Below, one piece after another: positions 3,863 through 38,545 of a DNA stretch of 47,818 nucleotides. The notes beneath the pieces were generated by a model. That model was not told the origin of the DNA. It did not search any database and saw only the letters and a program-made list of their open reading frames with translations. Position numbers and translations under genes: made by a program. Origin of the DNA: Deltaproteobacteria bacterium. GTDB taxonomy: Bacteria; Desulfobacterota; Syntrophia; Syntrophales; UBA8958. How positions within the stretch are numbered: position 1 is the first letter of the stretch; each line of letters opens with the position of its first letter. The stretch is from assembly GCA_026388335.1 (NCBI GenBank), contig JAPLJZ010000206.1, positions 1 to 47,818 on the forward strand. Reading direction: 5' to 3'.

Positions 3863-3885
3863 GATGAAACGAACCTCCATATAAC

Positions 3886-5034: not shown

Positions 5035-5066
5035 TCGTACTTCCTCCATATTAATATATGTTTATT

Positions 5067-5915: not shown

Positions 5916-5958
5916 CTTAACTCTTCCTCCTTTGTGATTTTTGTATAGCACCCAGGAA

Positions 5959-9453: not shown

Positions 9454-9951
9454 TCACTTGTTCAACTCCAAGGCATCCATAAGCGGACTGTCTTCAGAAA
9501 GGGCCGCACAGCTGTTCAAGAGCCTGGGATTGGCCCGGACCATGCTGGCAAAAAATTCCTTTTCCCCCTCCCGGTCTTTAGGTGCTGCAACCAGGATGTC
9601 CTTCGTAAAGGACATAATGACCCCGTTGCAGCATTCATCTAGAAGAATGGATACAGGTCCTGCGAAAGGATTGTCATCGAGAAGACCGCGTATTATCTTT
9701 TTGATCCCGGGTCCCACTCTCGTGCCAATAACATTTTGAAGATCCCATGACAGGTCCAATCGGTCATCCTGCCGGAATCGCCTGACTTGGCCCTCTGCCT
9801 GGGTAATTTCCAGGTTGGGGGACTTTACCAGAATCTGCACCCAGGCCTCCATCAAAGTATCCTGAACCCGGCAGGTTGCTCTTGTTGTCTGATCTCCCAG
9901 CTTTTCAACGGTGGTGCATCGATTTCTTGCGAAACACAATATTTCCGTCAT
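9454..9951 (-). CDS. DUF2889-like protein
   Basis: A 165-residue protein with no signal peptide or membrane segment. Its N-terminal two thirds parallel the first domain of the next gene (CRVQDTLMEAWVQILVKS, VIGTRVGPGI, CCNGVIMSF), which supports membership of the DUF2889 family. No catalytic motif is recognised. The ATG at 9951 has only a weak ribosome site. Together with the following PHP fusion it forms a tandem of two DUF2889 modules inside a CoA-transferase/mutase cluster. Function is unknown. Confidence 0.65.
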   Translation of the reverse strand: MTEILCFARNRCTTVEKLGDQTTRATCRVQDTLMEAWVQILVKSPNLEITQAEGQVRRFRQDDRLDLSWDLQNVIGTRVGPGIKKIIRGLLDDNPFAGPVSILLDECCNGVIMSFTKDILVAAPKDREGEKEFFASMVRANPRLLNSCAALSEDSPLMDALELNK

Positions 9952-10136: not shown

Positions 10137-11474
10137 TTATTTCGCGGATTTTCGCCAAATATTCATTTTTTCGGCATTTCTTACAAGCTCATCTCTTAGA
10201 TCCGGATGTGCAATATTTATAAGAGCTTCTGCCCGTTGCCAGGTGGACTTGCCGGCCAGGTCGGCCACGCCGCATTCCGTCACGATCATGTGGACCTGGG
10301 TGCGGGGCACCGTCACGATAGTACCTTGAGGCAGCATAGGGACGATCCTGCTTTTCATTTCGCCGGTCTTCTTATCCTTGTAGGAAGAGTAACAGCAAAT
10401 GAATGACATTCCTCCGTCAGACATGTAAGCGCCGGTGGCGAAATCGAGCTGGCCACCGGTGCCGCTGATGTGGCGCGGACCGGAAGATTCGGAAGACACC
10501 TGACCGAACAGATCCACCTCGAGGCAGGCGTTGACGGATATCATGTTGTCATGCTGAGCTATCACATGGGGGTCGTTGGTGTAAGACACCGGATAGGATG
10601 CCAGCGAGGGATTATTGTCAATCCAGTCATAGAGGAACTGGCTGCCTGCGGCAAAAGCGAAGGCGCTCTTGTTCTTGTCCACGCGCTTCTTCCTGTTGGT
10701 GAGCTTGCCGGCCGCGTGCATCTGGTAATGAGCGTCGACCAGCATTTCCGAATGACAGCCCAGATCCTTGATGTCCGATTTGGCAAGTGTCTCGCCTACA
10801 TAATTGGGAAGACCGCCGATACCGAGCTGAATGCAGGCGCCGTCGGGGATCATGGGAACGATATGGCTAGCGATCATCTTGTCGGTCTCTGTCGGGGGCG
10901 TCGGGGGAATAACCTCGACCTTGGATTCGAACTCTGTCACATAATCAACTTCCGAAATGTGCACTACTTCGTCGCGGCCACCCAATGCCCAGGGAAGCAG
11001 TGGATTGACCTCCAAGATGATCTTCCTGGAAACATCCAGGGTTGCCCGCACTGCGGCATTGGAATTATGCAAACTGAAGAAACCGTCTTTATTCATTTTG
11101 GTCACGCGGAGCATGGCTACATCTACACACTTGATGCTCTTCCGGTAGAAAAGCGGCTGGTTACGGAAGATCATGGGGTGATAATAGCAACGACCGCGAT
11201 CATGAAGCTTTCTTGCATAACCTGAAAAATGCCAATCCTGATAGGTGAAGACGTCTCCTTCTGGATCTGATTCAATACAGGCATTTGCAGATAGGGTCAA
11301 ACAGTGCCGAATATTTATATTTTTGAGTTCATTTTTTCGAGCCGCTAAAGCCTTGTCCAAGGCAATAGGTTTTGTATGTCCGAATCCATAATCAATCCAG
11401 TCATCACTCTTTACTATCTTTACTGCTTCTTCCGGCGTTACTAACTTCTTTTGGTATTCTTCTGCGTACGACAT
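10137..11474 (-). CDS. Acetyl-CoA hydrolase/transferase family CoA-transferase
   Basis: A 445-residue class I CoA-transferase of the 4-hydroxybutyrate/butyryl-CoA:acetate type. It would move CoA between acetyl-CoA and another carboxylate without using ATP. The probable catalytic glutamate is Glu243 in LGCHSEMLVD, and QLGIGGLPNYVG forms the CoA-binding loop. The ATG at 11474 with AGGAGA upstream gives the family length; the longer frame to 11525 reads into a decayed MeaB tail and is not part of the protein. It is related to the severed fragment at 5959-6165. It could be a CoA-activating or product-releasing step of the B12 mutase pathway; the acceptor acid is unknown. Confidence 0.9.
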   Translation of the reverse strand: MSYAEEYQKKLVTPEEAVKIVKSDDWIDYGFGHTKPIALDKALAARKNELKNINIRHCLTLSANACIESDPEGDVFTYQDWHFSGYARKLHDRGRCYYHPMIFRNQPLFYRKSIKCVDVAMLRVTKMNKDGFFSLHNSNAAVRATLDVSRKIILEVNPLLPWALGGRDEVVHISEVDYVTEFESKVEVIPPTPPTETDKMIASHIVPMIPDGACIQLGIGGLPNYVGETLAKSDIKDLGCHSEMLVDAHYQMHAAGKLTNRKKRVDKNKSAFAFAAGSQFLYDWIDNNPSLASYPVSYTNDPHVIAQHDNMISVNACLEVDLFGQVSSESSGPRHISGTGGQLDFATGAYMSDGGMSFICCYSSYKDKKTGEMKSRIVPMLPQGTIVTVPRTQVHMIVTECGVADLAGKSTWQRAEALINIAHPDLRDELVRNAEKMNIWRKSAK

Positions 11475-11489
11475 TGAAAATCTCCTTTC

Positions 11490-11655
11490 ATGCACTTCAT
11501 CATCTTTTTTGATTATGAGGCTCATTACCTCTTCAACAATCGTATTAAGGGGTCGATCTCACCTTTGGCTATTTTTCAAGATATTTCCGCCTGAAGCCAA
11601 TATTGCGGATGTGATCATAAATGACCCTCTTAATTTTTCTGCCATCGGATGACTT
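11490..11655 (-). pseudogene. MeaB C-terminal remnant with frameshifts
   Basis: Reading the minus strand in three successive frames gives KRVIYDHIRNIGFRRKYLEK, then AKGEIDPL, then IVEEVMSLIIKK. The intact MeaB at 13836-14813 ends with IFDQLRGTGLRRKYLEKI, AGEIDPYTAVEEVM and LFIKK, so the order and identity match well. At least two frameshifts and a stop separate the pieces, and nothing of the GTPase domain remains. This is a vestigial second meaB, sitting between the two kinds of CoA-transferase genes. Confidence 0.8.
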
Positions 11656-11677: not shown

Positions 11678-12499
11678 CTATTTTTTCAATCCACCGAGGA
11701 GCACCTTATCCGGATCAACTTCGTTTCTCAGAATGTCAATAACTTCCCGGGAAGGCGGCTCAGATTGCACTGCCCGCGAAATATCAATATCCCAGCCAAT
11801 TGTCTTTTTTATTTCAACCGGGTTAGTGCCCGGAAAGTATTCGGCAAGGAAAGCTATCTTTGTTTTTTCATCGAATTTCATGACGCACTGAGTTGTAACG
11901 ATAGCGTCTGGACCGCCCCGAATCAAACCGGCTTCTCTTCTCGGGACCCACTTTACATTGCCATTCTCAAATACTTTCACCATCCAGCCCGGACTCGTCA
12001 AATAGTCAACGATTTTTGGGAATCGCCTATCCTGGTGGACGATGTTAACCACAAAAGGAAGCCCGGAGGCGGCATCGTTTGCACCGCCGCTTCCCGTGGC
12101 CCGCCATCCTGGGTGTAGAATATCGAAGGGGTCTCCGGACTGGCGAGGGCCCATGGTCGAATTCAGGTTTCCGTACTGGTCGACCTGTGCCGCCCCGAGA
12201 ATTGCCATATCTGCGTGAGATCCTCCGGCATTGTATCCAAGAATGTCGAAGAGACCTGTTGTCACTGTACAGCCGTAAGCCGATCTTGGCTCACAGACAG
12301 AAAAAGGCAGATGGGCAAACCGCGAATCGACCGTCCCTCCCTCCATGAGAATCGTGGCTCGAGGGGCATGCGTTTTCACTGCAAGACTCGCCGTAAGAAG
12401 TCCAAGGCCAATACCTACAAAAATGACCATTCCATCTTTCACAAATTTAGATGTCTCGACAGCGACCATCTCAGGAACTGTATAATATTGCTCAGCCAT
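11678..12499 (-). CDS. Glutaconate CoA-transferase-like, subunit B
   Basis: A 273-residue beta subunit of a class I CoA-transferase of the glutaconate CoA-transferase type. The catalytic glutamate is retained as Glu53 in ILMEGG, corresponding to Glu54 of the Acidaminococcus enzyme, and the CoA-site motif ATGSGGANDAASG is present. A functional transferase rather than a derived hydrolase is therefore likely. The start at 12499 follows GGAGG. It lies 26 bases after subunit A in the same operon. The true acid substrate is unknown; the mutase context argues for a branched or short-chain acyl group rather than glutaconate. Confidence 0.88.
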   Translation of the reverse strand: MAEQYYTVPEMVAVETSKFVKDGMVIFVGIGLGLLTASLAVKTHAPRATILMEGGTVDSRFAHLPFSVCEPRSAYGCTVTTGLFDILGYNAGGSHADMAILGAAQVDQYGNLNSTMGPRQSGDPFDILHPGWRATGSGGANDAASGLPFVVNIVHQDRRFPKIVDYLTSPGWMVKVFENGNVKWVPRREAGLIRGGPDAIVTTQCVMKFDEKTKIAFLAEYFPGTNPVEIKKTIGWDIDISRAVQSEPPSREVIDILRNEVDPDKVLLGGLKK

Positions 12500-12525: not shown

Positions 12526-13518
12526 TTATTTATTCATGTAAGCGGATCGATCGTTGTCAGGATTATAGGCATAGGCCGGATTAGCCTTTAAACTGGACAG
12601 CCTTTTGCTGCCAAGCTTCTCCAGATAATGCCAATGGTCCTTGATCTTATAAACCCACTCGTCTAGCCACTTGTCTCTCTTCGAATCATCCCCCATGGCC
12701 GTGTGGAATTCTCGAAGGAAGTTAGTGTCGTAATCATAATTCATATAGGAACTTACAGGATGGCAGGCGTAGGGCACTGGAACAATGGCATCAATAATAT
12801 GGTGAGGAATCTGATTGGCATTGGGATCTCTAGCCATATAATCTTCCGTTACCAATTCGTCACATGTCAGGATTACTTTTTTCCCGGCGTATGCCTCTTC
12901 AACATCCCCACCTAATGCACCCATAATCCTTGCTGTACCCTTTTCACCCGCAAGTTGAGCATGAATGATCGTGACATCAGGGCTCAGCGCAGGCAGAAGG
13001 CAAATATTTTGATGTTCAGGCCAGAAAGGATCTTTCATGACATGGAATTTTGCCAAAGGAAACCTTTCGTCCTTACCCCTTAAGCCCATTTTCCCTTCCA
13101 CATCATATGCGGGATTGATCAGGTCGGTTCCTATCTGGGAATGGGTCGGCAGAAAGGGCACTCCCATTGCGGCCGCCTTGAACCTCAGAATCATAGAATA
13201 ATGGCTGTAATCCTCGTGCCAGATATTTCCGCTCTTTATTTGTCTTGAGCAAAAGGGATGTATAACCTGTACCAATTCATCTCCCACATAACATCCGGTG
13301 ATACCTGCCAAACAACCACCTGCTGCCAGCAACTCATCCGGACCTCCTGGTGTGACATGGCAGAGCTTTATCCCTTTGATTCCCTGCCGAAGCATCTCGT
13401 AATATATGGCGTAGCTCTTTCGGGTAATCGTAAAGCCGCCACTCGCAATGATTTGTCCATCCTTGATGAATTCCTTTACTGCCTCCGCCGGCGACATAAT
13501 CTTACTTTTCTCGTTCAT
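12526..13518 (-). CDS. Glutaconate CoA-transferase-like, subunit A
   Basis: A 330-residue alpha subunit with the family features near the N-terminus (MSPAEAVKEFIKDGQIIASGG) and the paired domain fold indicated by HVTPGGPDELLAAGG. It has the normal length of GctA. The start at 13518 follows GGAGGG. It pairs with the beta subunit 26 bases downstream to form the heteromeric enzyme. MeaB and the mutase subunits lie immediately upstream on the same strand, about 320 bases away, with a perfect hairpin in the gap. Confidence 0.88.
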   Translation of the reverse strand: MNEKSKIMSPAEAVKEFIKDGQIIASGGFTITRKSYAIYYEMLRQGIKGIKLCHVTPGGPDELLAAGGCLAGITGCYVGDELVQVIHPFCSRQIKSGNIWHEDYSHYSMILRFKAAAMGVPFLPTHSQIGTDLINPAYDVEGKMGLRGKDERFPLAKFHVMKDPFWPEHQNICLLPALSPDVTIIHAQLAGEKGTARIMGALGGDVEEAYAGKKVILTCDELVTEDYMARDPNANQIPHHIIDAIVPVPYACHPVSSYMNYDYDTNFLREFHTAMGDDSKRDKWLDEWVYKIKDHWHYLEKLGSKRLSSLKANPAYAYNPDNDRSAYMNK

Positions 13519-13835: not shown

Positions 13836-14813
13836 CTAGACATCTTTGACTGACTTCTTGATGAAAAGAGTCATAACCTCTTCCACCGCCGTGTAAGGAT
13901 CGATCTCGCCGGCAACTATCTTCTCAAGGTATTTTCGTCTGAGACCGGTCCCGCGGAGTTGATCGAAGATCACGCGTTCGATCTCGTCTTTGATGATCAC
14001 GCTGCTTTCCTGCTCGGCCTTCTTAAATGCGTACTGTTTCAGGCCTTCAGCTTTTCGCAGCCAGGCCTGATGTTTTTCGATCTGTTCCATCAGTTCCTCG
14101 ATCCCGTCATCTGTCGTGGCAACAGTAGGGACCACGGGAACAAGCCACCCCTCTTCCGCCACAGGGCGCATTCTCAGGGACACCTCCAGATCCAGCAGCG
14201 CCGCGTCCTTGCCTGGCATATCGGACTTGTTCAGCACGATCACCTGTGCAATTTCCATGATGCCGGCCTTCATGGCCTGTATGTCGTCGCCCATGGTCGG
14301 CGTCACCACAAGCAGACAGGTCTGGACGAGGCGGGACACATCGACCTCATCCTGGCCCGTTCCGACCGTCTCCACGATGACGACATCGTGTCCCATGGCC
14401 TCCATCACGCGCATGGCATCGACGGCTCCGCGGGCCAAGCCGCCCAGATAGCCGCGTGTCGCCATGGAACGGATGTAAACGCCCTTGTCGCGGCCGTGCG
14501 TCTGCATCCTCAGGCGGTCTCCGAGGAAGGCGCCCCCCGTGAAGGGGCTCGATGGATCGATGGCAATGACGCCGACGGTCCTGCCCTGCTTCCTGTAGGC
14601 GCTGATCATACTGGAAACCACGCATGATTTACCCGCTCCCGCAGACCCGGTCACGCCGATGACATGGGCATTCCCGACCGGCATGAAAAGCTGTTTCAGT
14701 ACATCGCGGGCAATTTGTTCTTGTCTTTCGATGGCCGATATGAGTTTCGCGGCGGCCATCCTGTTGTTCATTTTAATTCTTTTCGCCCATTCGGCGGCAT
14801 TTATTACGTCCAT
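13836..14813 (-). CDS. meaB: MeaB-type GTPase, mutase chaperone
   Basis: A 325-residue G3E-family GTPase. Proteins of this family load and protect adenosylcobalamin on methylmalonyl-CoA-type mutases. Walker A is GSAGAGKS at 56-63; DPSSPFTGGAFLGDR is the switch region, ETVGTGQDE follows Walker B, and NKSD gives guanine specificity. The C-terminal dimerisation arm (RRKYLEKIVAGEIDPYTA) is complete, unlike the remnant at 11.5 kb. The ribosome site for the ATG at 14813 is weak; a Met 15 residues later is an alternative start. The gene follows the mutase small subunit and almost certainly serves this mutase. Confidence 0.92.
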   Translation of the reverse strand: MDVINAAEWAKRIKMNNRMAAAKLISAIERQEQIARDVLKQLFMPVGNAHVIGVTGSAGAGKSCVVSSMISAYRKQGRTVGVIAIDPSSPFTGGAFLGDRLRMQTHGRDKGVYIRSMATRGYLGGLARGAVDAMRVMEAMGHDVVIVETVGTGQDEVDVSRLVQTCLLVVTPTMGDDIQAMKAGIMEIAQVIVLNKSDMPGKDAALLDLEVSLRMRPVAEEGWLVPVVPTVATTDDGIEELMEQIEKHQAWLRKAEGLKQYAFKKAEQESSVIIKDEIERVIFDQLRGTGLRRKYLEKIVAGEIDPYTAVEEVMTLFIKKSVKDV

Positions 14814-15000: not shown

Positions 15001-15417
15001 TTACTGCCTCACATGGTTACGGATGTAGGTGACGATCGGCTCGGTCAGCGATCCGGCCGGGAATACCGCGTCAACGCCCATCTCTTTGAGTGTCGGGACA
15101 TCTTCGATCGGAATGACGCCCCCGAGAACCAACCGGACGTCATTAAGTCCCCCTTTTTTCATCTCCTCGACGATCTGCGGCGTAAAGACCAGATGGCCGC
15201 CTGAAAGCGTGGAGAGGCCGATGACATCCACATCTTCGTCGATGGCAGCATCGACAATATCCTTGGGCATCATGAACATTCCCAGATAAACAACCTCCAT
15301 GCCGGCTTCCTTCAGCATGCTGGCGATTACTTTCGCACCGCGGTCATGGCCGTCCAAGCCGACCTTCGTCACAAGTACCTTGATTTTTCTAACTTTGTTA
15401 TCTTTCTTTTTTTTCAT
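15001..15417 (-). CDS. Acyl-CoA mutase small subunit (B12-binding)
   Basis: A 138-residue stand-alone cobalamin-binding subunit. The base-off motif DxHxxG is present at 22-27 with His24 as the predicted lower cobalt ligand, followed by the GLSTLSGGH and LVLGGVIP segments of the Rossmann-like fold. It would combine with the large subunit encoded 15 bases upstream, as in two-component isobutyryl-CoA and 2-hydroxyisobutyryl-CoA mutases and in archaeal methylmalonyl-CoA mutases. The start follows GGAGGAG. The subunit itself looks normal. Confidence 0.92.
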   Translation of the reverse strand: MKKKKDNKVRKIKVLVTKVGLDGHDRGAKVIASMLKEAGMEVVYLGMFMMPKDIVDAAIDEDVDVIGLSTLSGGHLVFTPQIVEEMKKGGLNDVRLVLGGVIPIEDVPTLKEMGVDAVFPAGSLTEPIVTYIRNHVRQ

Positions 15418-15432: not shown

Positions 15433-17121
15433 TCAAAACGGCGCCTGGATGATTTCCAGCGGGTCATACGGGTATCCAAATGAAAGACGTACGGCGCCCA
15501 TCATCTCCCCGGTCGTGGCGCCTGCCTCTGTAGCCGTTATCATGAAGGGGAGGACATTCTCCCGGCGGTCGGCCGCCGCTTTGAGATCAAGGATCTTCTC
15601 CTTCCAAAGGCTCTTGTTTCTCTCTTTTTTTAGTTTCTTCACCATTTCGATTTGCTTTTTGACTGAAACTTTGGAAATTCTCTGCACACCTAACGGGGTC
15701 GTTGTTTCCTGATCCGTCGTAAACATATTCACGCCCACCAGGATTTTGTCGCGGTCATCGATTTCCTTCTGCCGAGCCAAGGCTTCTTTTTCAAAGACCC
15801 TGTCGAGCCACTCGGTGCGAATGGCCTCATACATCCCACCAACCTTGTCCACCTCGGCCATGATCTTGTAAATTTCCTCCTCCAGCCTGTTCGTGAGATT
15901 CTCCACATAATAAGAGCCTCCTAGAGGATCGGCTACATTGGTAACGCCAGTTTCATAGGCCAGGATCTGCTGTGTCCGAAGTGCTTGGGTATGACCGTTT
16001 TCCGTGGGAAGACACACTGGTTCATCATAGGACGTGCAGTGTAACGACTGGACGCCGCCCAGAACCGCCGAGAGAGCCTGGTAGGCGATACGGATTAAAT
16101 TGTTCAGGGGCTGCTGCGGGACTAGGGAGCATCCTGCTGTATGGACGGCAAAACGGAACTGCTGCGATGAGGTCTTCTGTGCACCGTAATTCTCTTTCAT
16201 GAGCCTGGCCCATATCCTTCGGGCGGCCCTGATTTTCGACACCTCCTCGAAAATATCGATGTGACAGGATACGTAAAAGGCGAAACGCTGCATGAATTCG
16301 TCCACTTTGTAGCCCCTGCGTATCATCTCATCGATATAGAGCCGCGCAATCAAAAATCCGAAGGCAACCTCTTGGGGCGCGGTAATTCCCTGCTCCCGGA
16401 GATCGTATAGATTGACAGTGGTATAGTACCAGAGGGGCATCTCTTTTGTGCAGTACTCGATAACATCCGTTCCCAGTTTAACGGAAAGATCTAGGGGACA
16501 TGCGGGAGCAAAGCCGCAGTAACGGAAATGCACCGGGTCGTTCTGAATGGTACCCCGAAGTTTCTTGAGGTCATAGCCCCGCTTTTTTGCCACGGCCGCA
16601 TACTGCGCCATTGTCACTACGGATACAGAGGATGCAGTGATGAGTGACCATGAAACCTTATCGAGGGGGATATCGGCCGTCATGGTCTCCATGTCGTACA
16701 TGTTGGTGATGCAAACGCCAGTCAGTCCCACCTCGCTTTGCGCCCAAGGGTGATCCGCATCGAGGCCCATTTCGTAAGGAATGTCGGCGATGGTGTTTAA
16801 TCCCGAGCCACCCTCGTCCACGAGGAGTTTTGATCGATCATGGGTATCCTGGGGTGAACCCATCCCGATGACCTCCCGTCGAGTCCAGTAACGCCCTCTG
16901 AACATGTTCCGGTGAATCCCCCGGGTAAAGGGATACGTTCCCGGATCACATATGTCTTTGTACTTTTCCGATGGAAGATCTTCTGGAGTGTAGACCTCCT
17001 TCACCTCTAGGCCCGACCACGTCAAGCTGCTTTTTGGCTTTTCATAATAAGCCGCAAGGCACTTATCCCAATCCACATCTGTTGCCTGATTGTCAGGTAA
17101 TTTTTCTGCCGTTGCTTTCAT
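15433..17121 (-). CDS. B12-dependent acyl-CoA mutase, large subunit, noncanonical
   Basis: A 562-residue substrate-binding subunit of the methylmalonyl-CoA mutase family. Family features are clear: TYPFTRGIH (63-70), RYWT (77-80), DADHP (121-125), IPLDKVS, RGTIQND (189-195) and DPLGGSYYVE. By alignment from memory with the Propionibacterium enzyme, residues that define methylmalonyl-CoA chemistry differ: Tyr89 is Val84, Arg207, which binds the free carboxylate, is Gly203, and His244 is Asp240. Gln197 is kept as Gln193. The substrate is therefore probably a monocarboxylic or otherwise unusual acyl-CoA. The ATG at 17121 follows an AGGGGGG ribosome site. A sigma-54 promoter lies about 80 bases upstream. 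Operon partners are the small subunit and MeaB. Confidence 0.88.
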   Translation of the reverse strand: MKATAEKLPDNQATDVDWDKCLAAYYEKPKSSLTWSGLEVKEVYTPEDLPSEKYKDICDPGTYPFTRGIHRNMFRGRYWTRREVIGMGSPQDTHDRSKLLVDEGGSGLNTIADIPYEMGLDADHPWAQSEVGLTGVCITNMYDMETMTADIPLDKVSWSLITASSVSVVTMAQYAAVAKKRGYDLKKLRGTIQNDPVHFRYCGFAPACPLDLSVKLGTDVIEYCTKEMPLWYYTTVNLYDLREQGITAPQEVAFGFLIARLYIDEMIRRGYKVDEFMQRFAFYVSCHIDIFEEVSKIRAARRIWARLMKENYGAQKTSSQQFRFAVHTAGCSLVPQQPLNNLIRIAYQALSAVLGGVQSLHCTSYDEPVCLPTENGHTQALRTQQILAYETGVTNVADPLGGSYYVENLTNRLEEEIYKIMAEVDKVGGMYEAIRTEWLDRVFEKEALARQKEIDDRDKILVGVNMFTTDQETTTPLGVQRISKVSVKKQIEMVKKLKKERNKSLWKEKILDLKAAADRRENVLPFMITATEAGATTGEMMGAVRLSFGYPYDPLEIIQAPF

Positions 17122-17992: not shown

Positions 17993-18508
17993 CTACTCGC
18001 TCTGTTCCTCATACCTAGCCAGGACAAAAAGCATATCCGCCAGGCGGTTCAGATATTCATGGATGTGTGGATTATCGACAAGTCCCTGGCTCTTGAGCCT
18101 GGAAGTGTTCCGCTCCGCCCTTCTTATCACAGTGCGCCCCACATCGATTTGCGCTGATACAACCGTATCTCCGGGGTAGATGAAGACCTTGGGTATGGTT
18201 ACGTTTTTCTGAAGTTCATCGATGAGATCCTCAAGGCGTTTCGCATCACCTTCGCCGATTCTGACGGCAAGATTCGGAATGTCTCCGGGAAGGCTGGAAA
18301 GCTCCGCGCCCATTGTGAGCAGGTCTTTCTGGACGCTTAGGATAATCTCCTTGATTTTGGTATCCGGAGTCAGGGCACGGGCCACGCCAAGGACGGAACT
18401 TGCCTCGTCGAGAACGCCATAGGTCTCCGGTCTCGGATCGAATTTCGGCACCCGTTGCCCACCAAGGAGACTCGTTTCCCCGGTATCGCCTTTCTTAGAG
18501 AACTTCAT
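17993..18508 (-). CDS. PduO-type cob(I)alamin adenosyltransferase
   Basis: A 171-residue enzyme that adenosylates cob(I)alamin with ATP to make the coenzyme of the mutase. The N-terminal ATP loop SKKGDTGETSLLGG, the YGVLDEASSVLG segment, the VIRRAERN signature and the C-terminal YLNRLADMLFVLARY are all present. Its ATG at 18508 overlaps the last codons of the nucleoside phosphorylase remnant, whose tail (CAAAGGAGTGG) provides the ribosome site. The gene is bracketed by the 85-bp direct repeats. It supplies cofactor to the mutase at 15-17 kb and may use the promoter of the thiolase-fold operon upstream. Confidence 0.93.
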   Translation of the reverse strand: MKFSKKGDTGETSLLGGQRVPKFDPRPETYGVLDEASSVLGVARALTPDTKIKEIILSVQKDLLTMGAELSSLPGDIPNLAVRIGEGDAKRLEDLIDELQKNVTIPKVFIYPGDTVVSAQIDVGRTVIRRAERNTSRLKSQGLVDNPHIHEYLNRLADMLFVLARYEEQSE

Positions 18509-18876: not shown

Positions 18877-19650
18877 TTAGGGAAATTTCGGCTTTCTTTT
18901 TTCGCTAAAGGCAATTAATCCCGAGACGGGATCTTCTGAGGGGAAATAGTTCAGAAACGTCCTAACCTCAAGTGAGATGCCGTCTTGCATGCTCATTTCC
19001 ATACCTTGATTAAGGACTTTCTTCATACAGGCGAGGCCGTCAGAACTTTTCTCGACAATCCGGGCCACGATATGTTCCACCTCACGCTCCAGTTCATCGG
19101 GGGGGAGCGCTTTAATAACAAGGCCATACTCCTGGGCTTCCTTGCCACTTAACCAACGCCCCGTGTAAAGCAATTCTTTGGCGCGTTGGCGTCCGATGAT
19201 CCTCGGCAGGCGCTGCGTCCCTCCGGCGCCCGGCATAAGTCCATAATTAGCATGCTGGTCGCCGATGACGGCGTCTGTGGAAGAGATCGCCAGATCGCAG
19301 GCCTGAAGCAGTTCAAAACCGCCGGCGAGGCAATATCCGTGGACAACAGCAATGACGGGAACACGAAGATTCTCCATGCTGTTAAAGGTCCGGTTGATCT
19401 GGGAAATGAAACTTTCCAGGGCAACCGCGTCCCGTTGAATAGTGAGAAAGTACTTCAGGTCCGCCCCCGTACAGAAATTCTTTCCTTTCCCTCTAACAAG
19501 CAGGACCTTTATTTCACGGTCATGCTCGACCATATGCACAGCGTCCTCCATTTCGAGAACTGTTTCCAAATCAAGCGCATTGAAAGCGTCTGCGCGATTT
19601 ATGAAAAGAGTGGCCGCTCGGTCCTTTTTTTCGAGAATCACTTTTTTCAT
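18877..19650 (-). CDS. Enoyl-CoA hydratase/isomerase family protein, atypical site
   Basis: A 257-residue crotonase-fold protein. The oxyanion-hole motifs are present (KNFCTGADL near 58-65 and HGYCLAGGFEL near 104-114). Glu113 matches the first catalytic Glu of rat hydratase (Glu144), but the second (Glu164) is His133 in IGDQHANYGL. Simple hydration is therefore uncertain; isomerisation, decarboxylation or hydrolysis on an acyl-CoA is equally possible. The ATG at 19650 follows GGAGGG. It lies 11 bases after the DUF35 gene and is the last intact gene of the operon begun at 22499. Confidence 0.85.
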   Translation of the reverse strand: MKKVILEKKDRAATLFINRADAFNALDLETVLEMEDAVHMVEHDREIKVLLVRGKGKNFCTGADLKYFLTIQRDAVALESFISQINRTFNSMENLRVPVIAVVHGYCLAGGFELLQACDLAISSTDAVIGDQHANYGLMPGAGGTQRLPRIIGRQRAKELLYTGRWLSGKEAQEYGLVIKALPPDELEREVEHIVARIVEKSSDGLACMKKVLNQGMEMSMQDGISLEVRTFLNYFPSEDPVSGLIAFSEKRKPKFP

Positions 19651-19661
19651 CTGAACCCTCC

Positions 19662-20141
19662 TCAAATATCCAGCAGCTCGTAATGAAAATCGTTGATTGA
19701 ACCTTTTCTTCGTTTCTTAAAGACAACTTTCACGCGCGTTCCGATGGCCATCTTTTCAGCTGCCTTTTTCAGATCGGAAAGATCTATGTTTTTAACGAAG
19801 TTGACAAGGGCCGTATCGGCACCGTCGAGAAGAACAAAAGCGATAGCGTATGGGGGATCGGGAAGAGATTCGAATTTGACAGGGACAATGGTGAAAGCCT
19901 GGATCGTCCCTGCGCTGGCCACTTTCACCCATTCCTTTACAGGCACGAAACACCTCTCGCAAAATGCCCTGGGTGGGAGCATAACCAAACCGCAGGCCGG
20001 GCACTTCGGGGCAATTATCATTCCTTGTTTCAATGCCTGAAAAAACCTTTGGCCTACCTGTCCCACGGCATAGTTATATTCCACGTTCCATCCGCCCCTG
20101 AGAGAAACTGCATCACTTTTCATAAGCACCCCATTCTTCAT
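19662..20141 (-). CDS. DUF35 OB-fold/zinc-ribbon acyl-CoA-binding partner
   Basis: A 159-residue protein with an N-terminal helix, a rubredoxin-like zinc ribbon with CPACG and CERCF, and an OB-fold after it (TIQAFTIVPVKFES, IGTRVKVVFKKR). In known systems DUF35 proteins are obligate partners of thiolase-fold enzymes: BbsA with BbsB, ChsH2 with the aldolase Ltp2, and the archaeal HMG-CoA complex. Its ATG overlaps the TAA of the thiolase-fold gene by one base (TAATG), a strong sign of a joint complex. Confidence 0.9.
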   Translation of the reverse strand: MKNGVLMKSDAVSLRGGWNVEYNYAVGQVGQRFFQALKQGMIIAPKCPACGLVMLPPRAFCERCFVPVKEWVKVASAGTIQAFTIVPVKFESLPDPPYAIAFVLLDGADTALVNFVKNIDLSDLKKAAEKMAIGTRVKVVFKKRRKGSINDFHYELLDI

Positions 20142-21322
20142 TATTCCGCACCAAGAACAACCACGGCATGGAACTGGAAGGAGCCGCCCTCACCGTGGCA
20201 GACAACATTGCGGACACCTTCGACCTGCATGCCGGGCGTTGCCTTTTCCATGACCTGAAGCGCGCCGTCGCAGACACGAGCCAGCCCTGTTACCGCTATG
20301 GCATTGGCGCACAGTGTTCCTCCGGAAGGATTGACGGCGATTCTTCCTCCAATATCGAAAAAGCCCCTTTCGTTTAACCTTCCGCCTTCGCCCTTGCCGC
20401 AGAAACCCAGAGCCTCAACCATTGAAATTTCACAAATAGTGAACGGCGCATATAATTCCGCAACCTGGATATCCTTTAAAGGATTCGCAATACCTGCCTG
20501 GTGAAAGGCCTCTTTTGCAGCCATTGCGAGAATATCGGAATCGGCAAAATCCATCTCGGCCCTGCCTCCCATCTGGTCCCCCTGGAAAACGGTGTTGGCA
20601 AACTCGCTGCATCCTTTTATCCAGGCAGGCCGGCATCCCATTCTCCTAGCCTTCTTCTCTGAAACCATGACCACTGCGGCCCCCCCAGCAGAACTTGGAC
20701 ATATCTCATACTTCTTTATGGGCCAGCATAAATAGGGGGATTTCATTACGTCCTCAACGGTTATCCGGCCCTTCAGGTGAGCGACAGGATTGTTTAGCGC
20801 ATTTTTCCAGGAACGCACAGCTATGAGAGCCATTTGTTCTTCCGTCGTCCCGTAAAGATGGATGTGCCGTACGGCCTGGAACGCCGCCATCGTAATGGTC
20901 GTAAGTGCAAACTGCCTTTCGTAGAGGGGATCCCAGATAGTATTCAGGACCTGTTGCGAATCTTTGCATTCCCGAACCTTGTCGGCCCCAACCACAAGAA
21001 CGGAATCGAAAATGCCGGAGGCTATGTGATAGAAGCCGGCGTGAATTGCGGAGGTACCGGTAGCTCCTCCTGTATTGATGCGCATGAAGGGCCTATTGCG
21101 CCCCCCTACTGCGCCGACACACCATTTTTCCGGATCATTCATTCCAACAAATTCGGAAGGGCCCATAGAAAAGACAACGGCTTCGATGTCCTCCATTGTC
21201 ATATCCGCATCCTCAAGAGCAGCGAGGGCGGCCTGCTGTGCGAGTTCCGGCAATGTTGCCTCATGTTGGGAGCGGTATTGTGTCTGCCCTACTCCGATGA
21301 TAGCCACCTTCCTTCTTGTCAT
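20141..21322 (-). CDS. Thiolase-fold protein lacking Cys and His
   Basis: A 393-residue protein of the SCP2-thiolase/lipid-transfer branch. NPSGG (331-335) and EALGFCGKGEGG (303-314) are conserved. At the nucleophile position the usual C-A-S-G is replaced by G-A-T-G (Gly86 in INTGGATG), and the GHP histidine is Asn340 in LCANAIAVTG. It is thus unlikely to be an ordinary thiolase. It could act as a retro-aldolase like Ltp2 or be a structural subunit. The start at 21322 follows GGGAGAA; the longer frame to 21484 overlaps the upstream gene and is not supported. It is coupled to DUF35 downstream. Confidence 0.85.
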   Translation of the reverse strand: MTRRKVAIIGVGQTQYRSQHEATLPELAQQAALAALEDADMTMEDIEAVVFSMGPSEFVGMNDPEKWCVGAVGGRNRPFMRINTGGATGTSAIHAGFYHIASGIFDSVLVVGADKVRECKDSQQVLNTIWDPLYERQFALTTITMAAFQAVRHIHLYGTTEEQMALIAVRSWKNALNNPVAHLKGRITVEDVMKSPYLCWPIKKYEICPSSAGGAAVVMVSEKKARRMGCRPAWIKGCSEFANTVFQGDQMGGRAEMDFADSDILAMAAKEAFHQAGIANPLKDIQVAELYAPFTICEISMVEALGFCGKGEGGRLNERGFFDIGGRIAVNPSGGTLCANAIAVTGLARVCDGALQVMEKATPGMQVEGVRNVVCHGEGGSFQFHAVVVLGAE

Positions 21323-21356
21323 TCGATTCTCCCGGTTTTCAACTGGTAAATACTCA

Positions 21357-22499
21357 TCAAGACTGCAGGATGAAAACAGCATTACCCTGGGCACAGAACC
21401 CTGTGCTGCCTTGGGCCAAGGCCTTTCTGACCCCCGGAACCTGGTGGTCCCCGGCTTTACCGGCAGCCTGGAGATAGGCCTCACATATCCTGAAGAGGCC
21501 GGATGTCATCATGGGATTACCGGATAGTATCCCCCCCGAAGGATTGACCGGCAGCATGCCCCCGATCTGCGTCGATCCGTCCCTGACGATGTCTTCAGCT
21601 TTCCCCGGGCCGCAGAAACCCAGCCCTTCACAAGCAATGAGTTCATGGTAGGATGTGAAATCGGAAATCTCCGCCACATCCAAGGCCCTGAGGGGATTTT
21701 TAATTTTTGTCATGCTGTAAGCCCTGGACGCGGCAATGTGTGTCGAACTGGATTCCGCGAGGTCCCGTTCCCCCAGATAGTAGGAGTCAGTGGCCCAGCC
21801 TAATCCAGTGATCCAGACGGGGTCGCTTTTCAATTCCTTCGCTTTGCGCCGGGATGCCAGGATAAGGGCGCAGGCGCCGTCTGATTCCGGTGCGCAATCC
21901 AACTCGCGAAGAGGCCAACTGACAATGCGCGACGAACGGATCTGAGCGAGAGTAACCGATTGGCGCAATTGTGCGAGCTTGTTCTTCCTGCCGTTTCCCC
22001 TGTTCTTAACGACAATCATCGCCGGAACATCGGTGGAAATGCCGTACCTGCCTAAGTAGGCGCTTGCCATGAGTGCATTCGCGGCGACATGATTCATTCC
22101 GAAACCACGATGATAAAAAGGATCCCACCTCATGTTCATAATGTTCGATACCGGCGCCTCCGAGGTTTTGCACCATCCCACAACCATGGACAGATTGAAC
22201 TGTCCCGTCATCAGGCGCAGGGCTGCCAGGATAACCCCATAGCATCCTTCATCAGTGACTTTTATCTCATCCTTCAGATAAGCCCCGGCGGGCATCGCAA
22301 GGAGCATACTCGATATGCAGCGTCCGTCTAATTCATCACAGCCGGAAATCACGACACTGTCCAATTGTCCCCTGTCGAGACCGGCATCCAAGAGGGCTGA
22401 TGATGCTGCCTCAAAAACCATTTCATCAAGTTTTTGCTTTTTTTTAGCCTTTTCGATTTTGGTTATTCCCACACCGAGAATGGCTACGGAAGTATTCAT
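21357..22499 (-). CDS. Second thiolase-fold protein, His-to-Asn
   Basis: A 380-residue member of the same thiolase-like group, divergent from its neighbour. The expected nucleophile position is Gly85 in DEGCYG, although Cys86 is only one residue away, so loss of the nucleophile is less sure than in the partner. The GHP motif is GNP (Asn328) after VNPSGG. It is the first gene of the sigma-54 operon, 35 bases before the second thiolase-fold gene. The two probably form a hetero-oligomer with DUF35. The start at 22499 follows CGGAGAAG. Confidence 0.83.
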   Translation of the reverse strand: MNTSVAILGVGITKIEKAKKKQKLDEMVFEAASSALLDAGLDRGQLDSVVISGCDELDGRCISSMLLAMPAGAYLKDEIKVTDEGCYGVILAALRLMTGQFNLSMVVGWCKTSEAPVSNIMNMRWDPFYHRGFGMNHVAANALMASAYLGRYGISTDVPAMIVVKNRGNGRKNKLAQLRQSVTLAQIRSSRIVSWPLRELDCAPESDGACALILASRRKAKELKSDPVWITGLGWATDSYYLGERDLAESSSTHIAASRAYSMTKIKNPLRALDVAEISDFTSYHELIACEGLGFCGPGKAEDIVRDGSTQIGGMLPVNPSGGILSGNPMMTSGLFRICEAYLQAAGKAGDHQVPGVRKALAQGSTGFCAQGNAVFILQS

Positions 22500-22650: not shown

Positions 22651-24039
22651 TCAAGAAAGGTGATATTTCTTTATCAGATATCGAAGGGAAAAACGATCCA
22701 TATTCAGCAATTTCGCCGCCTTGCTCTTGTTCCCTTCGGCTTTCATCAATGCCTCGCTTATAATTTCGGCCTGAAAAGATTCTGTTATAGCCTTTAAATC
22801 AATGCCGTCTTCACCAAGGACGATAGGATCAAAAGGCCTTTTCGGCGAACTCAATTCCAGGCTTATCTCTCCAATTACTTCCGCCGGCAAATGCTTCCGC
22901 AATATAATCTCGGGATTTTCAATAATCATTATTCTTTCGATTGTATTGCGGAGCTCTCTCACATTGCCCGGCCAGGAATAGTTTAAGAGGAGATCCATGG
23001 CGTCCTGCGAAATATCCCGAACGTTCTTTTTGAAGCTCTGATTGAACTCATGAATGAAATATTTTGTGAGGGGAACGATGTCTTCTTTCCTCTCTCTTAA
23101 AGGTGATAGATTTATATGAAGAACATTCAGCCTGTAAAAAAGGTCCTGACGGAAACTCTTTTTACCGATTTCTTCACGAAGATTGTGGTTTGTCGCGGCA
23201 ATTATCCGGGCATCCATATCGATCATCTTTCCCCCCCCCAGACGCCTAAATTTGCGCTCTTGCAGGACATTGAGGATCTTCGACTGCATGCTCAATTCCA
23301 TGTCTCCGATTTCATCAAGGAAGATCGTTCCCCCGTTGGCTTGCTCTACGAGGCCCTGTTTCGCCCTTTTTGCGTCAGTGAAAGCCCCTTGCTCATAGCC
23401 AAACAGTTCACTTTCCAGTAGAGTTGTCGGGATGGCGGAGCAGTTGATCTCCACGAAGGGGCCGCTGCTGCGAGAGCTGTTGTAATGGATAGCCTTGGCC
23501 ACCAGTTCTTTCCCGGTCCCGCTCTCACCCTGGATGAGAACTGTAGACGATTCGATCTGGGAAATCTTGTTCACCATATCCAGTGTTTTTTGTAATGATT
23601 TGCTCTGGCCGATAATTTTGTCCGTGCCATACAGCATCTTGTTTCTGTCCTGGAAACCGCGGACCTCGCGCTTAAGCTTATGGGTCTCCAGGGCTAGTTT
23701 TACGATTGTGGTAAGGGCCTTTGATTCGAATGGTTTATTTATATAATCGACAGCCCCTATTTTTATGGCTTGTACAGCGTTCTCAACTGTGCCGTAGCCC
23801 GTCATCATTATAACGATAATTTCGGGGTCCATTGCCCTGATCTTTTTTAAGACATCAATGCCGTCTATATCGGGAAGCCTGACATCCAGCAGTACCAGTT
23901 CGATGCCTCCCTTTTTTATAATCTCGAGGCCTTTGCAACCGGTTTCCGCCAGGTGAACCTCATACGAGTTTTTCTCAAGGACAACCTTGAGCGAGTCCCG
24001 AATCAATTTCTGGTCGTCTATTATCAGAATCTGATTCAT
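22651..24039 (-). CDS. NtrC-family sigma-54 response regulator
   Basis: A 462-residue protein with receiver (1-120, phosphoacceptor Asp52 in LVLLDVRLPD), AAA+ activator (about 140-375) and Fis-type HTH (about 430-460, NKSAAKLLNMDRFSLRYLIK). Walker A is GESGTGKE (171-178) and the sigma-54 contact loop GAFTDA (218-223) is intact, so it can activate sigma-54 polymerase. Its ATG at 24039 overlaps the kinase stop by four bases (ATGA) after AGGAGAG. It lies directly before a sigma-54 promoter and is the natural activator of the two acyl-CoA operons. Confidence 0.93.
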   Translation of the reverse strand: MNQILIIDDQKLIRDSLKVVLEKNSYEVHLAETGCKGLEIIKKGGIELVLLDVRLPDIDGIDVLKKIRAMDPEIIVIMMTGYGTVENAVQAIKIGAVDYINKPFESKALTTIVKLALETHKLKREVRGFQDRNKMLYGTDKIIGQSKSLQKTLDMVNKISQIESSTVLIQGESGTGKELVAKAIHYNSSRSSGPFVEINCSAIPTTLLESELFGYEQGAFTDAKRAKQGLVEQANGGTIFLDEIGDMELSMQSKILNVLQERKFRRLGGGKMIDMDARIIAATNHNLREEIGKKSFRQDLFYRLNVLHINLSPLRERKEDIVPLTKYFIHEFNQSFKKNVRDISQDAMDLLLNYSWPGNVRELRNTIERIMIIENPEIILRKHLPAEVIGEISLELSSPKRPFDPIVLGEDGIDLKAITESFQAEIISEALMKAEGNKSKAAKLLNMDRFSLRYLIKKYHLS

Positions 24040-25694
24040 GCCTGCGCTCTCCTGGAAACTTTGCCTTGCCTGGATTTTATCCGGGGGTCTGCCGGCAGGC
24101 ATAAAATGAAAGTCGTGCCTTTATCAGCATTGGAATCAAAGCGGATTGTGCCCCGGTGCTCCTTTATGATGCTGTATGTGATTGAAAGTCCCAGGCCTGT
24201 TCCCTCCCGGTTGGTCGTGAAAAACGGGTCATAAATCCTGTCTTTGATCTCTTCGGAAATGCCCGCGCCAGTGTCGCTGATATGGACCAGGATACAGTTA
24301 TCGACCTTTTCGGCTGAATTCTTTTCACTCACGCCGGTTTCGATGGTCAGGTCCCCGCCCTGGGGCATGGATTGAATGGCGTTAATTATTATATTTAACA
24401 ATGCCTGGCGGATCTTTTCATTGTCCATGGGGGAGCTGGGAATATTATTCCCATAACGGGCAGCCAATCTGATTCTCTGGTTATTGCACTGCTCGCTGAT
24501 CAAAGAGCAGATGCTCCGGACTATTTCATTAATATCTCCTTTTTCAAAGTTGAATCTCTTGGGCCGTGCAAAGTCGAGAAGGTCGGATACCAGCTTTTCC
24601 AATCGAACTATTTCATGTTTGGCTTCATCGAGCAGGAGGGCTTCGGATGTTGTGAGGCGTTCGTTATCTTTAAATATATCGAGGACAACGTTGATTCCCG
24701 TGAGGGGATTTCGTATTTCGTGCGCAACACCCGCCGCGAGCTCGCCCAGCGAAATAAGCCGGTTCATCCGCTGCAAACGTTCATCCCGTTCGCGTTCGCT
24801 GGTGATATCGTAAATAAGAAAGAGTACACCCCTGAGTGCCCCTTTATCATTGAAAATCGGCGAAGAACTTATGCTTAAAATGATGTTCTTATCGTTTTTC
24901 AGAGAGCATTCACAGCCTTTTATATTTTCGTGGACCGAAATGGTTTTGTAAAACATGCTGTATATCTCAGGGATATTCGTGAAGACATGCTGGACGAACT
25001 TGTTCAGAATATTTTCCTTGTTCGCACCGAGAATATTTTCCGCTGCGGGATTTAAAGACGTTATCTTCCCATGAATGTCCGTGGTGAGTATGCCGCTCAC
25101 GGAGCTGTTCAGAATATCTTCGGAAAACATCTTTTCGTTTAATAGAGCCTCATAAAGTCTCGAGTTTTCGATTATGATGCTGGCATAATTGGCAAAAATA
25201 GACAGGGATTCAAACTGCTTTTCATCGATTTCGGGTTCGCCCTGTCTTTTATCCACGCCAAGAATGCCGATGATCTCTCCCTTGACCTTAAGGGGGACAT
25301 AGAGGATGCATCCTCTTTCAAATTTCTTCGTAATTTTCAGATCTGCAGGGGTCAGAATCGGATCAGAATAGACATCTTTTATAAGGAGTGGCTCCCCGGT
25401 CAGGGCCACTTTAGTTTCAATTGAATCGTGCCTTTTCAAATTATATGGCTTTGTCCTGGAGGATTCTTCCAGTTCATGTGAAAAACCGTTGATCCACATG
25501 CATTCAAGTAAATCTTTCTCTTTATTGATCAGATATAGACAGGATCGATTGAAGCCCATACCCTCTGTCACAGATTCCAGAAGGGAATCAACAACTTTAT
25601 CAATGGGAGATGGGGTCGTAAGGAGAGAACTAATCCTATATATGATTGAAAGGATATGCTCGGAAAACTCGCCAAAGATGTTGTTGTTTTTCAC
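24036..25694 (-). CDS. GAF-PAS sensor histidine kinase
   Basis: A 552-residue cytoplasmic kinase without membrane segments: GAF (about 30-180), PAS (about 190-300), HisKA with His325 in GVAHEIRNP, and HATPase with NIIINAIQSMPQGG, DTGAGIS and GTGLGLS. Since there are no transmembrane helices, it probably senses an internal signal such as an acyl-CoA, redox state or free acid through GAF or PAS. It is translationally coupled to the NtrC-type regulator. Confidence 0.93.
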   Translation of the reverse strand: MKNNNIFGEFSEHILSIIYRISSLLTTPSPIDKVVDSLLESVTEGMGFNRSCLYLINKEKDLLECMWINGFSHELEESSRTKPYNLKRHDSIETKVALTGEPLLIKDVYSDPILTPADLKITKKFERGCILYVPLKVKGEIIGILGVDKRQGEPEIDEKQFESLSIFANYASIIIENSRLYEALLNEKMFSEDILNSSVSGILTTDIHGKITSLNPAAENILGANKENILNKFVQHVFTNIPEIYSMFYKTISVHENIKGCECSLKNDKNIILSISSSPIFNDKGALRGVLFLIYDITSERERDERLQRMNRLISLGELAAGVAHEIRNPLTGINVVLDIFKDNERLTTSEALLLDEAKHEIVRLEKLVSDLLDFARPKRFNFEKGDINEIVRSICSLISEQCNNQRIRLAARYGNNIPSSPMDNEKIRQALLNIIINAIQSMPQGGDLTIETGVSEKNSAEKVDNCILVHISDTGAGISEEIKDRIYDPFFTTNREGTGLGLSITYSIIKEHRGTIRFDSNADKGTTFILCLPADPRIKSRQGKVSRRAQA

Positions 25695-35268: not shown

Positions 35269-35829
35269 TTACCCTTGGAGACTTCCGTTCAGTCTGTCAA
35301 CAATAACAATTACCAATCTTTTGCAAACATGGACGTCGATGGTCAATACTTTCTCGATATCGGCGGCGCTGCGGGATCCGGTAATAAAAGCAATGTAAGG
35401 TACTCCCCTGACATTCACTTTTGCAAATAAAGAAGTAAGATCGGGCAAAATCCTGTCGCTAGCAATGATGACGACATGGATTTCGGGAAGGCTTGACGCC
35501 AGGCGTTGAGCGGCGTCCGAGGATTCCTGCATTACCGTTCCCGTGTCGGCGGCAGCCCAATCCATCTGGCTGATACCAATCTTTGCTGCGGCCACCGCCT
35601 CCCTTGTCACGTTGAATTTCAGGCCCGGAACTTTCCCGGCGAGTTGATCCGTCTGAATCCTCTGTAGGAATAGACAGTCGCCCCAGACCGCATAATCCCC
35701 CGGGCTGTCCGCCACCCTTTCTTTTTGTAAGAAAGCGATTACAAATTGAAGGGCGGCAATTTTTGTTTCGAACCGGTGGACTTCACTGCCTACCGCCTCG
35801 GCCCTGGCTTTGAATTGATCAAGCAGCAT
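35269..35829 (-). CDS. LUD-domain protein (LutC-like)
   Basis: A 186-residue LUD-domain protein, the family of LutC in lactate-utilisation complexes. It aligns along its whole length with the product of 43305-43859: both begin with M(L)xDxFKAxAEA and contain GDYAVWGD or GCYAVWAD, VPGLKFxVTRE and TADIEKVL or TADIERVL. That comparison sets the start at 35829 rather than 35907. The ATG lies within the end of the GlcF gene, so the two are co-translated. It appears to be the LUD partner of the GlcD/GlcF dehydrogenase. Confidence 0.82.
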   Translation of the reverse strand: MLLDQFKARAEAVGSEVHRFETKIAALQFVIAFLQKERVADSPGDYAVWGDCLFLQRIQTDQLAGKVPGLKFNVTREAVAAAKIGISQMDWAAADTGTVMQESSDAAQRLASSLPEIHVVIIASDRILPDLTSLFAKVNVRGVPYIAFITGSRSAADIEKVLTIDVHVCKRLVIVIVDRLNGSLQG

Positions 35830-37135: not shown

Positions 37136-37139
37136 ATCA

Positions 37140-38531: not shown

Positions 38532-38545
38532 TTCAATTCCCCCTG

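Follow-up and report, generated by a model that had tools for sequence, protein, structure and literature searches.

The window analysed here is a contig of 47,818 nucleotides (JAPLJZ010000206.1, positions 1 to 47,818; G000:C80) from the 4.06 Mb, 268-contig genome of a Deltaproteobacteria bacterium of the order Syntrophales (assembly GCA_026388335.1). It carries a trio of genes encoding two thiolase-fold proteins, T1 and T2, and a DUF35 protein, for which an earlier note made from the sequence had suggested a retro-aldol or other carbon–carbon cleavage in place of ordinary thiolysis. According to Pfam and TIGRFAM-type profile scans and the list of open reading frames, the genes around the trio form a long minus-strand run, in which the trio is laid out as follows.

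21357 to 22499, minus strand: T1, thiolase-fold protein of 380 amino acids and putative subunit, with a short nucleophile loop, SDFT for HDCF and GNP for GHP.
20141 to 21322, minus strand: T2, thiolase-fold protein of 393 amino acids from the ATG at 21322 and putative subunit, with Gly86, YAPF for HDCF and Asn340.
19662 to 20141, minus strand: DUF35 protein of 159 amino acids, with a zinc ribbon (CPAC...CERC) and an OB fold (Pfam zf-ChsH2 and OB_ChsH2_C).

The longest open reading frame of T2 spans 21484-20141 on the minus strand, and translation probably begins at the ATG at 21322, which is preceded by GGGAG. The tandem arrangement described in the earlier note is found, with the T2 stop and the DUF35 start overlapping by one base (TAATG), and plausible ribosome-binding sites precede T1, T2 and the enoyl-CoA hydratase (ECH) gene further down. 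Pfam Thiolase_N and Thiolase_C_1 are present in both T1 and T2, the Thiolase_N match of T1 being slightly below the cut-off. Relatives of the DUF35 protein in the PDB are SSO2064 (3irb) and the DUF35 partners of the thiolase-fold aldolases Ltp2 (6ok1_B) and Sal (9myr_B); a partnership of this kind had been named for Ltp2 in the earlier note, and it is documented for both enzymes (PMC12329534).

Compared with SCP2-type thiolases, T1 and T2 have the fold but lack the nucleophilic cysteine and the histidines of HDCF and GHP. Counting Met as residue 1, the window's T2 has Gly86 at the cysteine position, Tyr291 at the HDCF histidine (YAPF) and Asn340 at the GHP histidine, while T1 has a shortened nucleophile loop, a serine at the HDCF histidine (SDFT) and Asn328 at the GHP histidine. 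The earlier note had listed the retained VNPSGG motif of both proteins, both asparagines and Gly86, all of which were recovered; its Gly85 at the nucleophile position of T1 appears in one alignment, whereas another places a three-residue gap there. The changes at the HDCF histidine (Tyr291 in T2, Ser in T1) go beyond that list. At residue 86 of T1, the window shares Cys with G026, one of its three closest orthologues, and the other two, G037 and L015, have Ser. With Ser in two of these three, a normal thiolase site composed of Cys86 and a histidine is unlikely.

The residue pattern was followed in an alignment of 33 trios, 72 comparison singles and five PDB chains, the singles being thiolase-like genes without a paired second one, mostly archaeal thiolases and most with an adjoining DUF35 gene. 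Trios were defined by the adjacency of two thiolase-like genes, so that adjacency itself is no result. Dropped before counting were the pairs at L023, L042 and L100:17892, which are canonical or unrelated thiolases paired by distance, and the duplicates L014 (same contig as L095, G026) and L169 (same contig as L015, G479). T2 has glycine for the cysteine in 33/33, tyrosine for the HDCF histidine in 32/33, proline for the HDCF cysteine in 33/33, asparagine for the GHP histidine in 33/33 and arginine replacing glutamine in the next helix in 32/33. All 33 T1 proteins present a shortened loop without an aligned cysteine, and their GHP position is occupied by Asn (28), His (4) or Val (1). The comparison singles keep the cysteine in 70 of 72, the HDCF histidine in 71 and the GHP histidine in 71. 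Loss of the thiolase residues in both proteins is therefore a stable family trait, and the residue observation of the earlier note is right and more general than the window alone. This pattern is not due to chance, because it is kept in 33 trios and because purifying selection on T1 and T2 is strong, with ratios of nonsynonymous to synonymous substitution (dN/dS) of 0.05-0.09 in the four of 12 comparisons with unsaturated dS. A subclade formed by L100 (first trio), L101, L102, L108, L110 and L173 has DUF35 genes flanking T1-T2 on both sides (6/6), and T1 retains YDAF or YDAY together with the GHP histidine in four of these six; T1 might be catalytic in this subclade.

Besides the window, 15 further genomes of its order contribute to the 33 trios, some of them with several each; the remaining trios are from Archaeoglobus, two Geoglobus, a Nitrososphaerales archaeon, a Baldrarchaeota archaeon and a Simplicispira suum plasmid, the highest-scoring of the 552 plasmid records with a T2 match. 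Within the window's own genus, none of seven genomes has a T2 match at E 1e-60, and the trio is thus accessory in this genus. A DUF35 gene lies within 6 kb in 32/33 trios (on the opposite strand in L016), the exception being L109, located at the end of a contig. T1 and T2 evolve in step: their distance matrices correlate with r 0.939 over 33 pairs and r 0.771 over 12 thinned pairs, with 0/2000 shuffles as high in either case, and their trees, obtained with a quick method, run parallel, the L021 pair grouping together on the T1 side. The plasmid trio (L180:6535-9129, NZ_CP027671.1) belongs to a cultured organism and represents a tractable laboratory source; its cluster also includes a third thiolase-like protein, a second OB-fold protein, short-chain dehydrogenases/reductases and an iron alcohol dehydrogenase.

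NCBI models for both proteins already exist without a functional name: PRK06065 (T2-like) and PRK06066 (T1-like) are both titled 'thiolase domain-containing protein'. They match 28/28 T2 and 28/28 T1 proteins scanned (best 1e-221 and 2e-161, respectively), and the window proteins fall far under their cut-offs (277 vs 455 and 233 vs 516 bits). AlphaFold2 models of T1 and T2 were built from 28-row alignments, outside which lie five trios (L170-L173 and L180), and reached a mean predicted local distance difference test score of 90.2 for T1 and 84.9 for T2, the latter with weak stretches at 118-135 and 251-259. The best VIA match of both models is the archaeal thiolase/HMG-CoA (3-hydroxy-3-methylglutaryl-CoA) synthase complex 6esq, with Z 54.3 and a root-mean-square deviation (rmsd) of 1.7 over 375 residues for T1, and Z 51.8 and 2.1 over 374 for T2; the 6esq protein, an acetoacetyl-CoA thiolase according to its title, differs in having Cys, HDCF and GHP intact. 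T2 also matches Ltp2 (6ok1; Z 45.0, rmsd 2.3 over 360) and Sal (Z 43.9, rmsd 2.8 over 372). The common fold carries no information on the reaction. BbsAB benzoylsuccinyl-CoA thiolase (7pxp) has the thiolase fold and works in an anaerobic acyl-CoA pathway, but retains Cys, HDAF and GHP. It has a zinc-finger DUF35 subunit and a single type of thiolase subunit.

The residues of T2 point to two thiolase-fold aldolases. In the steroid side-chain aldolase Ltp2-ChsH2, Tyr294 of YDHF is the base and Tyr344 the acid, and in the bile acid aldolase Sal-Shy (9myr), Tyr302 and Cys304 of YDCY take these two roles and a glycine occupies the thiolase cysteine position; the assignment of the tyrosine as catalytic base is accompanied by reported mutants (PMC12329534). 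Direct alignment of the PDB sequences gives Gly/YDHF/Tyr for Ltp2, Gly/YDCY/Gln for Sal and Gly/YAPF/Asn for T2. T2 therefore has the glycine at the cysteine position and the tyrosine at the HDCF histidine that both aldolases share, and resembles Sal in the amide at the GHP position. With Ltp2 the trio further shares loss of the GHP histidine, and its DUF35 protein would correspond to the DUF35 partner of Ltp2 and its hydratase to the one that acts before Ltp2. Both systems differ from the trio in having a single aldolase subunit and in belonging to a separate clade, and the DUF35 of Ltp2 is fused to a hydratase subunit. A common descent of T2 with Ltp2 and Sal within the superfamily was not supported in a quick, unrooted tree with several long branches, evaluated by the Shimodaira–Hasegawa approximate likelihood ratio test (SH-aLRT) only, with no bootstrap. 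Ltp2, Sal, 4u4e, L078 and L181 group in a single clade (SH-aLRT 99), which canonical thiolases join in a 37-row set (SH-aLRT 100), and as T1 and T2 fall outside this set, T2 is not a member of the Ltp2/Sal clade. If the aldolase reading is right, T2 would work like Ltp2 and Sal from outside their clade. With regard to the other members of that clade, 4u4e (deposited as a putative thiolase), L078:1811-2971 and L181:4782-5951 are single proteins in which Gly replaces the Cys and the motif reads YDSF or YDCF, and 4u4e may be an aldolase-like protein. Another thiolase-like structure, 4yzo (ST0096), has Ser in the nucleophile position and reads HDMA instead of HDCF.

It is well supported that T2 would not carry out ordinary thiolysis, because it lacks the cysteine and both thiolase histidines in 33 trios, and this part of the earlier suggestion stands. 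Its retro-aldol part draws support from the direct alignment of T2 with both aldolases, from loci that combine genes for acyl-CoA dehydrogenase (ACD), hydratase, T1, T2 and DUF35, and from marks of the isovaleryl type in the ACDs beside the trio. The trio is accordingly put forward, with a probability of roughly 0.6, as a candidate heteromeric, thiolase-fold, cysteine-independent beta-hydroxyacyl-CoA aldolase that would perform a retro-aldol cleavage on beta-branched 3-hydroxyacyl-CoA. The proposal, with its complex, reaction, direction, proton donor and substrate, is read from the fold, the residue pattern and its conservation, the gene order, the co-variation of T1 and T2 and the dehydrogenase type.

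Neighbouring enzymes would first dehydrogenate and then hydrate the acyl-CoA, the 3-hydroxyacyl-CoA being produced in the window by the proposed action of ECH. T2, the proposed catalytic subunit, would bind this intermediate, and Tyr291, at the HDCF histidine position, would act as the base that takes the proton of the 3-hydroxyl. The C2–C3 bond would then break to give a ketone or an aldehyde and a CoA enolate; the remaining oxyanion site would hold this enolate, which would become protonated. T1 is probably a non-catalytic, diverged partner that would complete the dimer, and DUF35 would cap and shape the pocket. Likely substrates would be beta-branched acyl-CoAs, for which ordinary thiolysis is impossible because a tertiary 3-hydroxyl is not oxidisable. 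In the window, the adjoining B12 mutase would feed or drain branched acids.

A trio that cleaves a tertiary 3-hydroxyacyl-CoA would be expected to go with a dehydrogenase that admits a tertiary beta-carbon. In isovaleryl-CoA dehydrogenase and ThnO, a glycine before the JK-loop base position makes room for such a carbon (PMC11659651). The nearest ACD of at least 300 amino acids within 2 kb was available for 20/33 trios (on the other strand in L021; L016 and L017, with no ACD mapped near their trios, were left out of the scan) and was compared with every such ACD (n=11) in 20 canonical thiolase regions of trio-carrying genomes. The glycine was found in 17/20 trio ACDs and 1/11 controls (Fisher test, 6e-5), the glutamate in helix G that marks the base site of isovaleryl-CoA dehydrogenase in 18/20 and 1/11, and 11/20 and 1/11, respectively, resembled isovaleryl-CoA dehydrogenases more than they did the butyryl-type references, the effective number of comparisons being smaller because the trios include close relatives. 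The top five PDB matches of the trio ACD of G025 (L111) are all isovaleryl-CoA dehydrogenase sequences.

Neighbouring families were assigned with profiles built for this analysis, MaoC identity being Pfam-checked on four proteins (Pfam MaoC appears in 4/10 trio-neighbour proteins scanned). Within 6 kb of the 33 trios lie genes for ACD (24), AMP-ligase (15), MaoC (16), ECH (10), a hydratase of either kind (21), 3-hydroxyacyl-CoA dehydrogenase (3) and canonical thiolase (3), and the recurrent orders are ACD-MaoC-T1-T2-DUF35 in Syntrophales and T1-T2-DUF35-MaoC-ACD in Geoglobus. The 20 canonical thiolase regions contain ACD in 10, hydratase in 7 and 3-hydroxyacyl-CoA dehydrogenase in 4, and some regions on both sides of this comparison are cut by contig ends. 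No aldehyde dehydrogenase family was found in 10 trio-neighbour proteins, and the 25 most frequent families of a further 52 include none. Genes for a beta-keto acid cleavage enzyme (BKACE) were observed near trios at L099:5557-6624, L108:12779-13738, L172:11824-12786 and L173:11678-12646, with two further ones among the 52 neighbours; cleavage of a 3-hydroxy-3-substituted glutaryl-CoA by the trio would yield a beta-keto acid for BKACE.

Several observations weigh against the aldolase proposal. Within T2, the proline stands where Ltp2 has a histidine and Sal its essential Cys304, and the known acid is unmatched, T2 having Asn where Ltp2 has Tyr344; moreover, T2 of L016 has Ala in place of the tyrosine. 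Many trio loci are close relatives, and the counts overstate their independence. ACD and hydratase occur together within 6 kb of 18/33 trios and in 7/20 control regions, which tends in the direction expected but is no clear difference. A missing 3-hydroxyacyl-CoA dehydrogenase was considered as evidence for retro-aldol cleavage and rejected: it is missing from 30/33 trios, and the lack does not discriminate because 16/20 canonical thiolase regions show it too. Long-chain ACDs can share the glycine and the helix G glutamate. The trio ACD of L015, a close relative of the window trio, is nearer to the butyryl type overall and its top five PDB matches are not all isovaleryl-CoA dehydrogenases, yet the glycine and the helix G glutamate are present. 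The window trio has no ACD within 6 kb, and the ACD at 3886-5049 of the window is of the linear YEGT type. The genome also encodes an HMG-CoA lyase (G000:C176:6084-6941; 308.7 bits, above cut-off), because of which a classical leucine/isovalerate route may coexist; such a lyase is above cut-off in 12/16 genomes, with none in G037, which has a close trio and mutase.

The remainder of the minus-strand run, in which the histidine kinase and NtrC regulator precede T1, T2 and DUF35 and an ordinary butyrate-type set lies further down, contains the following genes.

22651 to 25694, minus strand: NtrC-type regulator and histidine kinase, upstream of T1; they also adjoin the trio in G037, G026 and L015.
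18877 to 19650, minus strand: ECH, likely ATG 19650, 11 bases past the DUF35 stop.
17993 to 18508, minus strand: cob(I)alamin adenosyltransferase, PduO type (TIGR00636 above cut-off).
15433 to 17121, minus strand: adenosylcobalamin-dependent acyl-CoA mutase large subunit (MutL) of a divergent clade.
15001 to 15417, minus strand: B12-binding mutase small subunit (TIGR00640 above cut-off).
13836 to 14813, minus strand: MeaB GTPase (TIGR00750 above cut-off).
12526-13518 and 11678-12499, minus strand: two CoA-transferase subunits (Pfam CoA_trans in each).
10137 to 11525, minus strand: acetyl-CoA hydrolase/transferase-type CoA-transferase (Pfam AcetylCoA_hydro and AcetylCoA_hyd_C).
2612 to 5951, minus strand: butyrate-type set, with 3-hydroxyacyl-CoA dehydrogenase (5951-5067), YEGT acyl-CoA dehydrogenase (5049-3886) and canonical thiolase (to 2612).

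An ECH 64% identical to that of the window is found at the equivalent place in L015, and downstream of the trio, 89-92% identical copies are present of both CoA-transferase subunits in L015 and of the second in L014.

The earlier note had also suggested looking for the same trio next to B12 mutases in other genomes. A MutL of the same type, 89-91% identical, adjoins the trio in G037 and G026 as in the window, that is, in three of the four genomes with close trio orthologues. Of the 33 trios, 3 have the window's mutase type within 6 kb, and one more has a different mutase. A general, fixed link between the trio and a B12 mutase was rejected, MutL relatives 66-70% identical occurring in six genomes without a T1-T2 pair on the stretches examined, two of which are contigs of less than 5 kb. 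Among these relatives, G417 has a 112-residue thiolase piece with HDCF and GHP intact, and G352 a cut thiolase piece and a DUF35 gene at the contig end. Four (L156, L161, L167 and L177) of 18 stretches with 51-57% identical relatives carry a single thiolase, with Cys, HDCF and GHP intact, and a DUF35 gene.

In MutL of the window, Tyr89 of methylmalonyl-CoA mutase is replaced by Val, Arg207 by Gly, His244 by Asp, His328 by Ala and Gln330 by His. The divergent mutase clade (L114-L143 and L150-L168) has Asp244 and His330, with Ala or Gly for His328, in all members compared down to 51% identity, and several members of one family have three copies per genome. At L150:2637-9956 (G352), three mutase large subunits of three sequence types stand in tandem with small subunits and MeaB. 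The best PDB match of MutL is 2-hydroxyisobutyryl-CoA mutase, which has Ile90 and Asp117 at two substrate positions; MutL has Val and Ile there, and with these residues differing a 2-hydroxyisobutyryl-CoA (acetone) pathway is not favoured for the window. A roomy pocket in MutL would suit a quaternary or branched acid, and pivalate or isovalerate as substrate would be a guess. Kitanishi and co-workers reportedly described in 2015 what a smaller residue in place of the Phe does in isobutyryl-CoA mutase.

Four other explanations of the trio were weighed. The one that survives best has the same enzyme running in reverse, condensing an acyl-CoA and a ketone, for example acetone, into a tertiary 3-hydroxyacyl-CoA in ketone assimilation. 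Aldol chemistry is reversible, the acetone-induced cluster of Desulfotomaculum arcticum includes DUF35, a thiolase-family protein, an enoyl-CoA hydratase and a B12 mutase (PMC8084838), and the mutase, 3-hydroxyacyl-CoA dehydrogenase and thiolase of the window all lie in one strand run. Nevertheless, this direction seems unlikely: acetone clusters use a thiamine diphosphate-dependent enzyme (PMC8084838), of which there is none among the scanned part of the window proteins, the mutase of the window lacks the Asp and has Val for the Ile of 2-hydroxyisobutyryl-CoA mutase, and the genes for ACD and CoA activation near trios suggest the catabolism of acids.

It is distinctly unlikely that the trio is a thiolase or acyltransferase whose nucleophile is an unusual one, such as a cysteine one residue before the usual place. 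Such a cysteine (TCGSTG) is present in 14/33 T2 proteins, but Gly or Ala stands there in the other 19, the window's T2 among them, the GHP histidine is Asn and the HDCF histidine lost in 33/33, and Cys86 of T1 is replaced by Ser in two of three close orthologues. Very unlikely, too, is a decarboxylase or other enolate-forming enzyme acting on a 3-carboxyacyl-CoA. The trypanosomal SLP, which has the tyrosine motif of Sal (YDCF), slowly decarboxylates malonyl-CoA, but this activity is very slow and absent in Sal (PMC12329534), and the ACD and hydratase neighbours of the trios imply a 3-hydroxyacyl-CoA. Finally, a non-catalytic CoA-binding scaffold or channel between neighbouring enzymes would agree with the loss of thiolase residues from both subunits and with the linking of enzymes by DUF35 in other complexes (PMC12329534), but is the least probable of all, the new residue set of T2 being nearly invariant in 33 trios, unlike random loss, and the dN/dS values being low wherever measurable.

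The aldolase proposal bears on a general problem, since acids branched at C3 are barred from normal beta-oxidation, the alcohol formed being tertiary, and anaerobes must break the bond otherwise. For the second ring of naphthalene, the literature speaks of a 'novel lyase' step and cites an AtuA-like lyase as unpublished results (PMC11659651, PMC12016498). This lyase, ThnQS, cleaves a non-oxidisable tertiary 3-hydroxyacyl-CoA (PMC12016498, again as unpublished results) and resembles the trio in that proposed role; it differs in being annotated as AtuA-like, not as a thiolase, and the printed thn table contains no DUF35 gene. A two-subunit thiolase-fold aldolase, if true, would be a different and directly testable answer to cleavage at a tertiary alcohol; no report of one with DUF35 appeared among the papers listed by searches of an open-licence library. 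Anaerobe genes annotated as acetyl-CoA acetyltransferase or thiolase would then include lyases, changing pathway reconstructions, and the handling of branched carbon chains by some oxygen-free microbes would be explained.

A wider scenario, doubtful when all its parts are taken jointly, would see in the trio a second, independent origin of an aldolase from the thiolase fold: an ancient two-subunit carbon–carbon lyase of Syntrophales, Archaeoglobi, Nitrososphaeria and a proteobacterial plasmid, with which anaerobes might break beta-branched chains at the tertiary alcohol without carboxylation and HMG-CoA lyase, and which in the window might, together with the new B12 mutase clade, dismantle quaternary-carbon (pivalate-type) acids.

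Elsewhere in the window, positions 9454-9951 encode a 165-residue protein with no Pfam match, which is 70% conserved near a CoA-transferase in G026. Positions 35819-45985 contain genes for an L-lactate permease, an FAD-linked oxidase with an iron–sulphur partner and a LUD-domain iron–sulphur protein, a lactate-type group that is apparently unrelated to the trio.

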